A stretch of DNA of 64,000 bases from NCBI RefSeq assembly GCF_005503555.1, contig NZ_SCNG01000001.1, positions 496,001-560,000 of the forward strand, given 5' to 3'. The translations under genes and the position numbers were made by a program. This document shows positions 5,963 through 27,067 of this stretch, piece after piece. The notes beneath the pieces were generated by a model. The model had not been told where the DNA came from. It saw nothing but the letters and a program-made list of their open reading frames with translations, and searched no databases. Origin of the DNA: Rudaea sp. 3F27F6. Its GTDB lineage: Bacteria > Pseudomonadota > Gammaproteobacteria > Xanthomonadales > Rhodanobacteraceae. The first letter of the stretch is position 1; the number at the start of each line of letters is the position of its first letter.

Positions 5963-7171
5963 TTAGCGCGCGTTGGCGACCGCGCGCGGCTCGACGAATG
6001 CCGCAGCGCGGTCGAGCGCTTCGGCGATGTCCGCGCTCAGATCTTCGACCGCTTCGATGCCGACCGACAGGCGTAGCAGGCCGTCGCCGAGACCGGCGAC
6101 GCGGCGCGCTTCGGCATCCATCGCCGCGTGCGTCATCGTCGCCGGGTGCGCGATCAGGCTCTCGACGCCGCCGAGCGATTCGGCCAGGGTGAACGACTGC
6201 AGGCCGTTGACGAAGGCCTCGACCGCGGGCACGCCGCCGACGAGGTCGAAACTCAGCATCGCGCCGAAACCGCGCTGCTGGCGCGCGGCGAGCGCGTGCT
6301 GCGGATGCGTGGCGAGACCTGGAAAGTAGACCCTCTCCACGGCAGGATGCGCATCGAGCTGCTCGACGATCGCCGCCGCGTTCTCCTGGTGCGCGCGCAG
6401 GCGCGGCTGCAGGGTGCGTAGGCCGCGCAGGGTCAGATAACTGTCGAACGCGCCGCCCGACACGCCGAGGCAGTTGCACCACCAGGCGAGCTGCTCGCCG
6501 ACTGCGGCGTCCTTCCACACGACCGCGCCGCCGACCACGTCGGAGTGACCGTTGAGATACTTCGTCGTCGAATGCACGACGATGTCGGCACCGAGCGAGA
6601 TCGGCTGCTGCAACGCCGGCGACAGGAACGTGTTGTCGACGACGACGAGCGCGCCGATCTCGTGGGCGAGGCGCGACACCGCGGCGATGTCGACGATGCG
6701 CAGCAGCGGATTGCTCGGCGTTTCGATCCAGACGATCTTCGGCTTGCAGGCGAGCGCCGCAGCGAGCGCGACGGTGTCGTTGAAATCGACGATCGAGCAG
6801 CGGTACAGGCCGCGCTTGGCCTGGTTGACGAACAAGCGATAGCTGCCGCCGTAGCAGTCGTGCGGTACGACGATCAAGTCGTCCGGGCCGAGCTGCGACG
6901 TGACCAGCGTGATCGCGGCCATGCCGGTCGCGGTGACGACCGCGCCCGCGCCGCCTTCGAGTTCGGCCAGGGCGCCGGCAAGCACGTCGCGGGTCGGGTT
7001 GCCCGAGCGCGAGTAGTCGTAGGCGCGCTTCTTGCCGAAGCCTTCAAAGCTGTAGTTCGTCGACAGATACAGCGGCGGCATCACCGCGCCATGCGCGATG
7101 TCCTGATCGACGCCGGCGCGGGCGGCGATCGTGGCGGCTTGGCGAGCGGTTTTCTGGGCGACGAAACTCAC
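5963..7171 (-). CDS. metB: Cystathionine gamma-synthase / O-succinyl(acetyl)homoserine lyase family
   Basis: This 402-residue PLP enzyme of the Cys/Met metabolism family joins an O-acylhomoserine to cysteine (transsulfuration) or possibly to sulfide. Family motifs are the YDYSRSGNPTRD block (about 51-62), the TGMAAI turn, WIETPSNPLLRIVDI (about 148-162), VVVDNTFLSP, and the PLP lysine in VHSTTKYLNGHSD (Lys204). The C-terminal SLGGVESLIAHPATMTHA matches the gamma-synthase branch. It starts 18 bases after metX ends, so the two form one transcription unit. Both are expected to be under the riboswitch and met boxes upstream of metX. Distinguishing gamma-synthase from O-succinylhomoserine sulfhydrylase needs a phylogeny. 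Confidence 0.9.
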   Translation of the reverse strand: MSFVAQKTARQAATIAARAGVDQDIAHGAVMPPLYLSTNYSFEGFGKKRAYDYSRSGNPTRDVLAGALAELEGGAGAVVTATGMAAITLVTSQLGPDDLIVVPHDCYGGSYRLFVNQAKRGLYRCSIVDFNDTVALAAALACKPKIVWIETPSNPLLRIVDIAAVSRLAHEIGALVVVDNTFLSPALQQPISLGADIVVHSTTKYLNGHSDVVGGAVVWKDAAVGEQLAWWCNCLGVSGGAFDSYLTLRGLRTLQPRLRAHQENAAAIVEQLDAHPAVERVYFPGLATHPQHALAARQQRGFGAMLSFDLVGGVPAVEAFVNGLQSFTLAESLGGVESLIAHPATMTHAAMDAEARRVAGLGDGLLRLSVGIEAVEDLSADIAEALDRAAAFVEPRAVANAR

Positions 7172-7189: not shown

Positions 7190-8230
7190 TTATGCGATCA
7201 AACAGGTTTCGAACAGGCGGCTGACGCTCGCTTCCTCCTTGAGAAAGGCGTCGTGGCCGTAGTTCGAGGAAATTTCAACGAGATTGCACGGGCCGCCTGC
7301 GCGCGAGCGGTACTCGTGCACGAGCGACAGCGGTACAGTCAGATCCTCGCGCACCGCGAACAGCGTGGTCGGCACGCGCACCGCGGCCGGATCGACGACG
7401 TGCGCATCGAGCGAGCGGCCGAGGCAGCGGTACGCGTCGGCGTCGAAGCGGCGCACGAACTTGCGGCCGTGATGCTCGACCCAACCGACCACGCCATCGG
7501 CGTGCGCATCGAGCGGCGCCTCACCGCCGAAGCGCTGTTCGACGCCCTCGGCCGTGCGGTAGCCGAGCACGGCGAGCGAACGCGCGAGCGCAAGCGCTTC
7601 GGCCGTATCGCTGCCGAGATCGAGGATGGCGCGCTGCACGTGGCGTAGAGCGAGGCCGAACTGCGCCGCCTTGTGCGCCGCGCTGAGCAGAACCAGATGG
7701 CGCAGGCGGTCGCCGAGCAGCGCCGCGAGTTGCTGGGCGACGTTGCCGCCGTACGAGGCGCCGACAACGAGATGTACGCGGCGCACGCCAAGCCGGTTGA
7801 GCAGCAGCAACAGGGCGCGTGCCTGGTCGCCCGTGGATATCGCGGGGAATTCGGCCGCGCCGCCGGCCTTCGGTCCGGTCGAGGCGTCGCAGCCGCCGAG
7901 CCAGTCGATGCCGAGCACACGATAGCGCTCGATATCGAGCGTCTTGCCGGCGCCGCACTGCGACTCCCACCAGCCGCGGCCATCCTGCGCCACGGCGCGG
8001 CGATGCGCGGAAATACCGCCGAGGACGACGATCAGCGGCGCATCGGCCGGGCCGACGCACTGCCAGGCGAGCTTGGCTTCGTTGAGGGATGCGCCCGATT
8101 CGAGGACGAAGGGCTGCGGCAGCGCGAGTTCACCGTCGAGCCACTGCACGGCCGGTACGGCGGCGATGGCCGCTGCCTGGGCGTGGGGATGACGTTGCGG
8201 TTCGGCGCTCATTTCGGTCTCGTCTTTCAT
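7190..8230 (-). CDS. metX: Homoserine O-acyltransferase (MetX-type alpha/beta hydrolase)
   Basis: The protein catalyses the committed acylation of homoserine in methionine synthesis; the short length (346 residues) is that of the variant MetX group often annotated as succinyltransferase. Catalytic elements are VVGASYGGNVA (nucleophile Ser159), VREDLTVP (Asp296) and SSNYGHDAFLKE (His326). Start choice: the longest reading frame begins at 8353, but that ATG lies inside the SAM riboswitch aptamer, so translation must begin after 8273. The ATG at 8230 (weak GGGTCAGG upstream) or the in-frame ATG at 8212 are both possible. metB follows after 18 bases. Expression should fall when SAM is high through the riboswitch and, if MetJ exists in this genome, through the upstream met boxes. 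Confidence 0.88.
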   Translation of the reverse strand: MKDETEMSAEPQRHPHAQAAAIAAVPAVQWLDGELALPQPFVLESGASLNEAKLAWQCVGPADAPLIVVLGGISAHRRAVAQDGRGWWESQCGAGKTLDIERYRVLGIDWLGGCDASTGPKAGGAAEFPAISTGDQARALLLLLNRLGVRRVHLVVGASYGGNVAQQLAALLGDRLRHLVLLSAAHKAAQFGLALRHVQRAILDLGSDTAEALALARSLAVLGYRTAEGVEQRFGGEAPLDAHADGVVGWVEHHGRKFVRRFDADAYRCLGRSLDAHVVDPAAVRVPTTLFAVREDLTVPLSLVHEYRSRAGGPCNLVEISSNYGHDAFLKEEASVSRLFETCLIA

Positions 8231-8248
8231 TACCTGACCCAACGAGAC
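8217..8248 (-). promoter_or_regulatory. Possible expression-platform hairpin around the metX start
   Basis: On the minus strand GTCTCGT (8242-8248) can pair with ACGAGAC (8217-8223). The loop then contains the ATG at 8230, and the 3' arm lies just upstream of the ATG at 8212. No U-tract follows, so the riboswitch may act on translation initiation rather than by termination. This is a hand-folded inference. Confidence 0.4.
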
Positions 8249-8272
8249 GACACGCCGACTGCCAACGTTCGC

Positions 8273-8421
8273 CTCATCTTCACGGGGTTCACCGCAGCCG
8301 TTCGGGCTGCGGACCTCGCAGGAATTGGCACCAATGGCAGGATCGTTCCGCATGTCGCGGTCGGATTCTGCAACGGTTGCCCCGGCTTCGCTGGGCCTGT
8401 CCCTCAGCCGGTCTTGATGAG
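8273..8421 (-). promoter_or_regulatory. SAM-I (S-box) riboswitch upstream of metX
   Basis: The minus-strand sequence from 8421 to 8273 matches the S-box consensus closely. The 5' P1 strand CTCATCAAGA is followed by the conserved GAGGGACAGGCCC and GAAGCCGGGGCAACC core, then GGTGCCAATTCCTGC, a hairpin-forming GCAGCCCGAACGGCTGC, and GATGAG (8273-8278), which closes P1 with the initial CTCATC. About 149 nt is a normal size for this class. SAM binding should repress metX and metB. The aptamer starts about 10 bases after the -10 element, placing it at the 5' end of the leader. Confidence 0.96.
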
Positions 8422-8431
8422 TACGGGGCGT

Positions 8432-8460
8432 ATGCTACGGAGGCAATTTTTGGATGTCAA
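8432..8460 (-). promoter_or_regulatory. Sigma-70-type promoter of metXB
   Basis: On the minus strand a perfect -35 TTGACA (8455-8460) is followed after exactly 17 bases by a -10 TAGCAT (8432-8437). The predicted start is near 8425, immediately before the riboswitch P1 stem. The -35 overlaps the most downstream met box. Confidence 0.8.
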
Positions 8461-8483
8461 GACGTTTAGACGTTTGGACGTCT
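8452..8483 (-). promoter_or_regulatory. Four contiguous met boxes (MetJ-type operator)
   Basis: Reading the minus strand, 8483 to 8452 divides into four adjacent octamers: AGACGTCC, AAACGTCT, AAACGTCT and TGACATCC. The known MetJ met-box consensus is AGACGTCT, repeated in tandem without spacing. Matches are 7, 7, 7 and 5 of 8. The array covers the -35, as expected of a repressor operator. No metJ gene lies in the window. Confidence 0.82.
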
Positions 8484-8551
8484 AAATTCGACATTTCGAC
8501 GACTCAGTCCGCGGCCATCCTTCCGGCGGCCGGGAATTGAGCGAAAGAAGG

Positions 8552-9448
8552 CTATTTCCTGCGCTGGCTGGCGACGAAGATGCCGAGCAGCGACAGGCCG
8601 AGGCCGATCCAGTCGGTCGGCGCAGTCGGCCGCGCGAACAGGATCACATCGAGGATGAAGGAAAGCCCCGGCTGCAGCAGCAGAAGCAGGCCGACGAGTG
8701 ACGCCGGCAGCACGGGCATCGCCTGCGAGATCAATACCCAGCCGAGCACTTGGCCGAAAAAGGCCAGCGCGAGCAGCGCCGTCCACGACCGCGCGTCGGG
8801 AATCGCAAAGCTCTGGCCTTCGGCCACGACGGCAACGGCAAGCATGACGGCGCAGATCACGGTCACGCCGCACAAGGCCAGTTGCGGCGTCAGCGCGGGC
8901 CGGCGCAGTTGCGCACGGCGCTGGGTCAACATGTAGACCGCGTAGGCGATCCCGGTCAACACGCCGAGGATGACGCCGGTGCGGTAGTCCGCGCTCAGAT
9001 TGGCCCAGCCCTGCCCGACGATCAGCCACAGGCCGAGGATGGCCAAAGCCAGACCCAGCGCGAAACGCCAGCCGAGCTTCTCGCGATAGAAGACGACGCC
9101 GGCCAGCGCCATCACGAAGACCTGAAAATTGCCGATCAGGGTCGCAAGTCCGGGGCCGATGTAGTGGATGCTCCGGTGCCACATGATCAGATCGACCGCG
9201 AACGCCGCTGCGGGTACGGCCAACCACAGTGCGTCGCGCCAGCCGAAGCCGCGCCAGCCGCCGCGCACGGCGAGCAGCACGGCGAGCATCACGCCGCCGA
9301 ACGCAAGCCGGTAGAACGCCGACACAGTCGGCGCGACGTGGGCGTAGCGCACGAAGATGCTCGTCGTCGAAATTAGCGCAGCGCCCGCAAGCATTTTCAG
9401 GAAGGCGCTGCGATAAGCCGCAGTACCTTCCGCGACGGCAGCGTTCAC
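8552..9448 (-). CDS. EamA-family (DMT superfamily) exporter
   Basis: The protein has 298 residues with about ten hydrophobic helices in two tandem EamA repeats, the fold of drug/metabolite and amino-acid exporters. It begins MNAAVAEG... if the GTG at 9448 is used. That codon overlaps the stop of the upstream glutathione S-transferase gene in a GTGA arrangement, so the pair is translationally coupled. An in-frame extension reaching 9682 exists but is Arg-rich, overlaps the transferase and looks like out-of-frame translation. Typical elements are the N-terminal STTSIFVRYAHVAPTVSAFY stretch, the GPGLATLIGNFQVF helix and the C-terminal WIGLGLSLLGIFVAS. Substrate unknown. Confidence 0.85.
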   Translation of the reverse strand: MNAAVAEGTAAYRSAFLKMLAGAALISTTSIFVRYAHVAPTVSAFYRLAFGGVMLAVLLAVRGGWRGFGWRDALWLAVPAAAFAVDLIMWHRSIHYIGPGLATLIGNFQVFVMALAGVVFYREKLGWRFALGLALAILGLWLIVGQGWANLSADYRTGVILGVLTGIAYAVYMLTQRRAQLRRPALTPQLALCGVTVICAVMLAVAVVAEGQSFAIPDARSWTALLALAFFGQVLGWVLISQAMPVLPASLVGLLLLLQPGLSFILDVILFARPTAPTDWIGLGLSLLGIFVASQRRK

Positions 9449-10107
9449 GGCGTGGTTTTCTCGTGCTCGACCGCGATTTCCTCGGTGGCCGCCTCGGCCA
9501 GCCACTCGCGCAGCGCCGGCAGCGCGAACAAGGTATCGATGTAGGCACGTTCGACCGCGCCGACATCGACCGAGTAGCTCAGGAAACGCAGCGCCACCGG
9601 GGCGTACATCGCATCGGCGATCGAAAACGCGCCGAACAGGAACGGTCCGTGCGCTGCATGCTTCTCGCGCGCTTCGCTCCACAGCTTGCAGATGCGCGCG
9701 ATGTCCTTGGCCGTATCCGCGGCGATCGCCGGCGCCGGTCCCTGCCGGCGCGTGTTCATCGGCATATTCGTGCGCAGCGCGACGAAGCCCGAGTGCATTT
9801 CCGCGCTGATCGCGCGCGCCGAGCCGCGCGCGGCGCGAGCGGCCGGCCAGCCGCGGCCGTCGAGAAAATAGTCGTTCGCATACTCGCAGATCGCCAGCGA
9901 GTCCCAGACGTGCACGTCGCCGTCGATCAGCACCGGCACGCGGCCGGCCGGCGAGTAGTCGCCAATGCGCGCATAGAACTCCGGCGTGTCGAGCGGCAGC
10001 TTGACTTCATCGAAGGCGACGCCGAACTGGCGCAGCACCAGCCACGGCCGCAGCGACCACGACGAATAGTTCTTGTTGCCGATGACGAGGGTCGGTTGTG
10101 CGCTCAT
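9445..10107 (-). CDS. Glutathione S-transferase family protein
   Basis: The 220-residue protein has the two-domain GST layout. The N-terminal thioredoxin-like domain (about 1-80) contains GNKNYSSWSLRPW with the likely catalytic Ser/Tyr region, then SPAGRVPVLIDGD, which holds the cis-proline Val-Pro, and WDSLAICEYAND, the glutathione gamma-Glu binding Asp/Ser pair. An all-alpha domain follows. It may conjugate glutathione to electrophiles or act in isomerisation; the substrate cannot be read. Its stop codon overlaps the GTG of the EamA exporter, suggesting a small detoxify-and-export unit, which is an inference. Confidence 0.88.
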   Translation of the reverse strand: MSAQPTLVIGNKNYSSWSLRPWLVLRQFGVAFDEVKLPLDTPEFYARIGDYSPAGRVPVLIDGDVHVWDSLAICEYANDYFLDGRGWPAARAARGSARAISAEMHSGFVALRTNMPMNTRRQGPAPAIAADTAKDIARICKLWSEAREKHAAHGPFLFGAFSIADAMYAPVALRFLSYSVDVGAVERAYIDTLFALPALREWLAEAATEEIAVEHEKTTP

Positions 10108-26741: not shown

Positions 26742-27067
26742 GTTGTCTATTCGGGAGCCGCATCGATGCGGCGATAACTGAATGGAAGCACAACGTTCGT
26801 TAGGACTTCGCTAAATCGACATGCCCTCGGGTGATGTGGATATATGTCCCGCGGCGCTGCGACGCAGCATTGCAGGCCGCATCACGCTTCGCTTGCAGCG
26901 GCCGATTGTCAACCGTCCGCCGCACTTATCACCGCAAGCAATAACCGCAGCGCATGACCCTATAACTAAAGGTACGTTCTGGCCTCCTCCGGCGAGGACT
27001 AGGATCGGCCGATATCTCGTCTTCCATTAGACGTATAGCCGTCCAAACCAGCCAAGCGAGCGCCGAC
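26742..27067. other. Divergent intergenic region between flavoprotein gene and cysJIH
   Basis: No gene is seen here. TATAAC (26961-26966) could be a -10 for the cys operon, but a matching -35 was not convincing. A met-box-like pair sits at 27029-27044. A CysB site might be expected in this region but its consensus is too loose to call by eye. Confidence 0.35.
27029..27044 (+). promoter_or_regulatory. Two met-box-like octamers ahead of cysJ
   Basis: AGACGTAT followed directly by AGCCGTCC matches the tandem met-box consensus AGACGTCT at 13 of 16 positions and ends 23 bases before the cysJ GTG. It resembles the stronger four-box array upstream of metX. It could be a MetJ-type operator or chance. 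Confidence 0.45.

Follow-up and report, generated by a model that had tools for sequence, protein, structure and literature searches.

We consider it probable, judging from the sequence, that two successive controls, both responsive to SAM, govern metXB in this Rudaea genome, with MetJ and SAM acting at initiation and a SAM-bound leader acting at translation. Across the Lysobacterales we lean, with less assurance, towards a wider reading in which the SAM-I leader stays constant at metX and what is exchangeable is the DNA-level operator abutting the -35. This operator would be a SamR-type palindrome in families that lack MetJ and, in the Rhodanobacteraceae, a met-box array recognised by a MetJ that has a histone-like tail, in genomes where a SamR relative is still present. 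Together the two layers would form a selected double SAM lock, of which Rudaea sheds the RNA layer and keeps the protein layer. What is observed directly comprises the sequence elements and their conservation, a metJ gene in the genome, an operator that differs from family to family, and boxes that occur without the riboswitch.

The locus lies in a 64-kb stretch of DNA, the whole of which is referred to here as the window. Its elements are all on the minus strand, where the met boxes come first and are followed by the promoter, the SAM-I aptamer, metX and metB:

8452..8483, minus strand: tandem met-box array, predicted MetJ operator (26/32 letters, the best in the window)
8455..8460, minus strand: -35 hexamer TTGACA, from the promoter scan
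8432..8437, minus strand: -10 hexamer TAGCAT, with a 17-nt spacer from the -35
8271..8423, minus strand: SAM-I (S-box) riboswitch aptamer RF00162, 64.4 bits
8416..8421, minus strand: P1 5' strand CUCAUC, from the RF00162 alignment
8269..8278, minus strand: P1 3' strand GAUGAG and the following GCGA, with a predicted alternative pairing to 8241-8250 (anti-P1)
8241..8250, minus strand: UCGUCUCGUU segment, predicted to partner either the P1 3' strand or the ribosome-binding/start region
8217..8224, minus strand: GACGAGAC, putative weak Shine-Dalgarno (SD) strand before the second ATG
7190..8212, minus strand: metX, homoserine O-acyltransferase, start probably ATG 8212 (MSAEPQ...), with an alternative in-frame ATG at 8230
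5963..7171, minus strand: metB, cystathionine gamma-synthase / O-succinylhomoserine (thiol)-lyase (TIGR02080, 601.6 bits, cut-off 504.55)

In plus-strand reading the four octamers of the array are GGATGTCA (5/8), AGACGTTT (7/8), AGACGTTT again (7/8) and GGACGTCT (7/8). The three good boxes occupy 8460-8483 and the weak one, at 8452-8459, coincides with most of the -35. The score of 26/32 compares with 18 for the next unrelated sites of the window and with four-box maxima of 18-20 in eight 64-kb dinucleotide shuffles. Tandem 8-bp boxes near AGACGTCT are thus found at a promoter, as expected of a MetJ operator, and the array is a predicted operator on this basis. The promoter, TTGACA-17-TAGCAT, retains 10/12 consensus letters and the aptamer starts 8 nt past the -10, which would place its beginning at about the expected transcription start of metXB. 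The initial annotation had described this architecture over 8273-8483, with four octamers at 8452-8483 covering the -35, a 17-base promoter spacing and a SAM-I aptamer about ten bases after the -10. Each of these parts is borne out, with three good boxes and one weak, a measured spacing of 8 nt before the aptamer, and an Rfam match reaching 2 bases further on the 3' side. Just upstream of the promoter, on the same strand, an EamA/DMT-type transporter-like frame occupies 8552-9682 of the window, its identity assigned by eye.

The Rfam covariance search proposed in the initial annotation found RF00162 at 8271-8423 on the minus strand, matching the whole model (1-108 of 108) with 64.4 bits, where the gathering score is 44.4; a search of the genome found this as its sole SAM-I. 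The assignment of ATG 8212 as the metX start follows a comparison with metX genes of Rudaea genomes that lack the riboswitch. The best NCBIfam model for metX is homoserine O-succinyltransferase MetX at 275.5 bits, under its cut-off of 296.

In the mechanism that we propose, MetJ with SAM as corepressor would bind the tandem boxes over the -35 and block RNA polymerase, and those transcripts that escape would begin with the SAM-I aptamer. With SAM bound, P1 would be closed, so that 8241-8250 could pair with the ribosome-binding/start region and translation would fall; without SAM, the P1 3' strand would pair with 8241-8250 instead. MetJ binding, the direction of the RNA switch and the quantitative outcome are what we infer from the sequence.

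Conservation was examined in a sample of 99 genomes, 59 in the family of the window and 40 in others, where family denotes our grouping f1, which is not identical to the Rhodanobacteraceae in which NCBI places Rudaea. RF00162 was found in 72/99 genomes by a search with stricter filters that lose weak matches, and MetJ matches were found in 64/99, 63 of them above the cut-off. Within f1, SAM-I is present in 49/59 genomes and MetJ in 58/59; among the other 40 genomes SAM-I is present in 23 and MetJ in six. The two occur in one genome in 49/59 of f1 and in 0/40 elsewhere. All 75 SAM-I matches were used, 49 loci from f1 and 26 from other families, and the 110 nt before each aptamer were read. The two-box score is 13-16/16 in all 49 f1 loci and 7-10 in the 26 loci elsewhere, and a score of 13 was reached by 0/980 shuffles for the f1 loci and by 0/1,500 over all loci. 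TTGAC is likewise present in 49/49 f1 loci, starting 34-39 nt before the aptamer, with a TAnnnT -10 at 17-18 nt in 44/49. The best two boxes lie 1 nt from TTGAC in 32/49, overlap it by 1 nt in four and are separated from it by 7 or 9 nt in 13. The presence of boxes, TTGAC and fixed geometry in every f1 locus therefore marks a fixed promoter design rather than a local accident, and this design is probably old or early in family f1.

All 49 boxed f1 loci are in genomes with a MetJ match, while the array occurs in 0/26 loci of MetJ-less genomes. The proposal that MetJ and the S-box both read SAM at metXB is supported, as far as sequence carries, by this distribution and by the presence of metJ. 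An explanation in which only the riboswitch matters, the boxes being a relic or bound by another protein, is highly improbable given the strict company of boxes and MetJ, the persistence of boxes where the riboswitch is absent, and the position of the SamR-type pattern of the window's genome, which is found at metF and ahcY and not at metX. It could draw on Xanthomonas campestris, where, according to the available text of PMC6230763, methionine had no effect on the met promoter and nearly all of the control came from the leader. However, strain 8004 is reported there to lack metJ, and hence provides no test of the boxes.

The initial annotation had named a genome without metJ as grounds for giving up MetJ control. 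One metJ is present in the window's genome (G000:C10:271598-271834), with 134.1 bits to Pfam MetJ PF01340 and 137.5 bits to the NCBI MetJ equivalog NF003622 (cut-off 110). We take the VKKITVSIP-type strand of MetJ to be its DNA-reading strand. The stretch VKKVTVSIP of the Rudaea protein aligns to VKKITVSIP of E. coli MetJ (1cma), and family score and conserved strand together place the protein in the MetJ repressor family. Its C-terminus is not of the E. coli type, and a K/A-rich tail stands in that place:

L001:1480-1845, plus strand: metJ of the window's genome with its tail, 27 further f1 loci being alike

The K/A-rich tail is present in 28/28 f1 loci examined, out of 58 f1 genomes with a match, and comprises 35-310 residues with at most two acidic residues in the counted stretch. 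In the other two MetJ-bearing families the MetJ open frames are 80-101 residues. The f1 tail resembles those of histone H1/AlgP type, and a literature search on MetJ with a lysine-rich C-terminal tail found no publication. As regards possible autoregulation of metJ, 14 of 30 loci were readable upstream of the gene and two-box matches scoring 12-16/16 are present in 11/14, and the window genome's own metJ has a two-box score of 11/16, both readings being without shuffle control.

Searched genome-wide with up to 3 mismatches, the two-box pattern gave 19 matches and its reversed control 31. Box counting was rejected as evidence by itself for this reason, and single box sites elsewhere in the genome are weak evidence. 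Surroundings were read for 14 of 18 distinct sites, the other four being on contigs 11-14. Five precede met or cys genes (metX, metE, metK, cysJ, and cysK with a CysB-family gene), two precede other genes (a TonB-type receptor and leuA), and seven lie within frames or have no recognisable gene clearly downstream. Upstream of metE is a second stacked promoter (L109:1501-1714, G000:C8), in which a two-box site (3 mismatches) at the -10 stands ahead of a cobalamin riboswitch (RF00174, 116.3 bits), with metE beyond it. A two-box site (3 mismatches) at 27029-27044 of the window is followed, after about 24 nt, by a plus-strand cysJ-like frame, and a MetJ link to sulfite reduction is possible through this site. 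A further two-box site (L119:1501-1516, G000:C10) lies about 92 nt before a TonB-dependent receptor weakly similar to CirA/BtuB models.

Within Rudaea, metX was found in 13 of 16 genomes, three giving none, and is preceded by the riboswitch in 6/13 and not in 7/13. All six readable riboswitch-less metX genes (G001, G003, G005, G006, G012 and G015) have tandem boxes and a promoter with a short leader. None of the six gave a SAM match at E up to 0.5 in a run where eight other loci match. The seventh genome, G009, has its metX broken over contig ends and falls outside this count. Several of the riboswitch-less genomes are incomplete assemblies, and the boxed G015 (83% complete) gave no MetJ match. 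As the boxes are kept where the riboswitch is absent, they have a function of their own. A tree of MetX groups the six Rudaea with the riboswitch into a single clade (100/98) and places the six without it at the base of this clade in no supported order, a topology that would allow one loss of the riboswitch or several. Loss of SAM-I is the simpler reading because all 43 sampled f1 genomes outside Rudaea carry it. No aptamers of the family score lower than those of Rudaea (62.7-69.5 bits, with 70.4 or more elsewhere in f1), and these low scores, combined with the missing riboswitch in part of the genus, suggest that the RNA layer may be decaying.

How the remaining leaders may work was approached by folding. 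A terminator-type riboswitch was rejected, there being no terminator-like site in 8150-8560. With start sites chosen by rule (metX frame, SD-like letters) rather than by annotation, the mean predicted pairing of SD-like letters is 0.89 against 0.67 in shuffles for 48 of the 49 f1 leaders. These letters are predicted to be fully paired in 30/49 leaders, and the SD stem beats shuffles at 0.05 in 21/48, one of the 49 leaders having no stem. Anti-P1 pairing does so in 5/48, all Rudaea, and a P1/anti-SD switch common to the whole family was rejected on this count. The Rudaea expression platform differs in sequence from the rest of f1, and its UCGUCUCGUU segment is predicted to be able to bind the P1 3' strand over eight to ten base pairs or, alternatively, to pair with the ribosome-binding region. 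Alone, the 79-nt piece that reaches from the P1 3' strand to the start adopts the anti-P1 fold (z -2.56). When both states were forced in the six Rudaea leaders, the anti-P1 helix was formable in 6/6, its energy differing from that of the P1 form by -6.1 to +5.4 kcal/mol, and in 4/6 the SD core was closed while P1 was formed and mostly open in the alternative state. G002 and the window's genome show the same SD pairing in both forced states (3/5), and the start codon of the window's leader is paired in both. A translational switch by the metX leader is likely by analogy with Xanthomonas campestris, where, in the part of PMC7270179 available, the SAM-I riboswitch of the met operon acts mainly on translation.

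These folds bear on whether only MetJ matters, the SAM-I leader in Rudaea being a decaying relic that no longer controls expression. The low aptamer scores, the six boxed metX genes without a riboswitch and the failure of the forced open state to free the SD or start codon in the window's leader would all fit such a relic. We nevertheless judge it unlikely, since the aptamer matches the whole RF00162 model 20 bits over the gathering score, the anti-P1 helix can form within the above energy range in all six riboswitch-bearing Rudaea, and the riboswitch is retained throughout the sampled f1 genomes outside the genus. A somewhat better chance, though still a modest one, is given to a variant that overlaps with serial control by MetJ and leader. 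Here both layers would act, but not as the two SAM thresholds that the initial annotation had thought possible: MetJ would set a slow, regulon-wide tone and the riboswitch would read a second signal too, as with uncharged initiator tRNA in Xanthomonas. The sensing of this tRNA (tRNA-fMet) by the Xanthomonas SAM-I platform, as described in the accessible text of PMC7270179, is consistent with the variant, as are the box sites before other met and cys genes, but the divergence of the Rudaea platform from the rest of f1 argues against it. Our preferred reading for metXB continues to be SAM-responsive control by MetJ at initiation and by the leader at translation.

Outside f1 the same position at the promoter is often occupied by a different operator. 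Among the 26 MetJ-less SAM-I loci, ATC-N18-GAT is the best upstream 24-bp palindrome in 16 (families f2-f6), and in 16/16 its end is offset by -1 or +1 from TTGAC, that is, one base into or before it. Thirteen of the 16 palindromes are equalled by at most 12/200 shuffles. The other three (G061, G062 and G073) are weak, equalled by 41-49/200, so that there the ends and position carry the case. The remaining 10/26 loci (three in f5, four in f8 and one each in f9, f10 and f11) have no ATC-N18-GAT palindrome. With one mismatch allowed, the pattern matched in six of eight genomes searched and its reversed control in none; the two genomes without a match, G070 and G073, carry looser forms at their metX or metB promoters. 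The palindrome also precedes an ArsR-methyltransferase gene in G060, G061, G063 and G092, and in G061 and G092 a metH-like gene is found beside that gene, gene names near palindromes being assigned by eye except for the ArsR-type protein.

L216, L221, L222 and L225, and the SAM-I loci of f2-f6: ATC-N18-GAT palindromes before ArsR-methyltransferase genes or at the SAM-I -35

SamR of the Xanthomonadales is described beside metH genes, with a 24-bp ATC...GAT palindrome, in the portion of PMC4239095 consulted, and the palindromes found here are taken to be of the same kind as its operator. Palindrome sites in f1 are at metF (G021 and the window's genome) and at ahcY (the window's genome). For the window's genome these two 1-mismatch matches are the only ones, and no SamR/SahR operator was found at metX. 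A relative of the SamR protein is nonetheless present in 93/99 genomes, including 57/59 of f1; the regulator thus persists in this family, with its place at metX held by met boxes. Three points weigh slightly against both the serial-control and the Lysobacterales-wide reading and slightly favour the relic: the predicted pairing of the start codon of the window's leader in either forced state, the weakness of three palindromes among the 16, and the missing MetJ match in the boxed genome G015.

The variation amounts to a natural promoter series of one gene, in which boxes with a riboswitch, a palindrome with a riboswitch and boxes without a riboswitch can be set side by side, and it allows a direct approach to the question of why a bacterium should sense one metabolite through a protein and again through an RNA. 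MetJ and SAM-I, which the comparative survey in PMC4239095 keeps in separate lineages as far as its consulted text goes, meet here on one promoter. Those portions report no SAM-I in its genomes, list no MetJ in four Xanthomonadales (Table 1) and place MetJ in six gammaproteobacterial groups, the Xanthomonadales not among them. A literature search, which left most subscription papers outside its reach and in which sources were seen in part, turned up no report that combines MetJ with SAM-I at a single promoter. The initial view that double SAM sensing at one promoter is unusual consequently holds for the literature found but not for family f1, where it is the rule (49/49 SAM-I loci): the design of this soil bacterium is common to its relatives, more widely than the initial annotation knew.

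Among known systems the Xanthomonas campestris met operon is the closest at the RNA level, with a SAM-I riboswitch in the 5'UTR of homoserine acyltransferase and metB genes and the translational control that is proposed here too. It is unlike Rudaea in strain 8004 for its reported lack of metJ and its unresponsive promoter (PMC6230763, in the text available). The introduction of PMC7270179, citing earlier work, disagrees in stating that the E. coli system is conserved in Xanthomonas, and the examined text of neither paper mentions met boxes in X. campestris. E. coli shares the tandem AGACGTCT-like boxes over the promoter and the MetJ core; it differs in giving no SAM-I match in our control set, and the K/A-rich MetJ tail belongs to f1. 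The SamR regulon of Xanthomonadales (PMC4239095, as far as consulted) is alike in that met genes within the same bacterial order carry a repressor operator, a 24-bp palindrome with ATC/GAT ends, but SamR is an ArsR-type regulator and its palindrome abuts the SAM-I -35 in MetJ-less families, where f1 has met boxes. Sensing of one metabolite, or of related ones, by both a protein and a riboswitch at a single operon is also described for Oceanicaulis hom-metXC, with a SAM_alpha riboswitch and SahR (PMC4239095), and for E. coli lysC, with a lysine riboswitch and lysine-sensitive ArgP (PMC12925634). These two involve other regulators and other riboswitch classes, and the examined text of their reports gives no family-wide promoter design. 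Measured against these systems the parts of the Rudaea promoter are known, and MetJ boxes with a SAM-I riboswitch on one promoter are, in the literature as consulted, a new combination.
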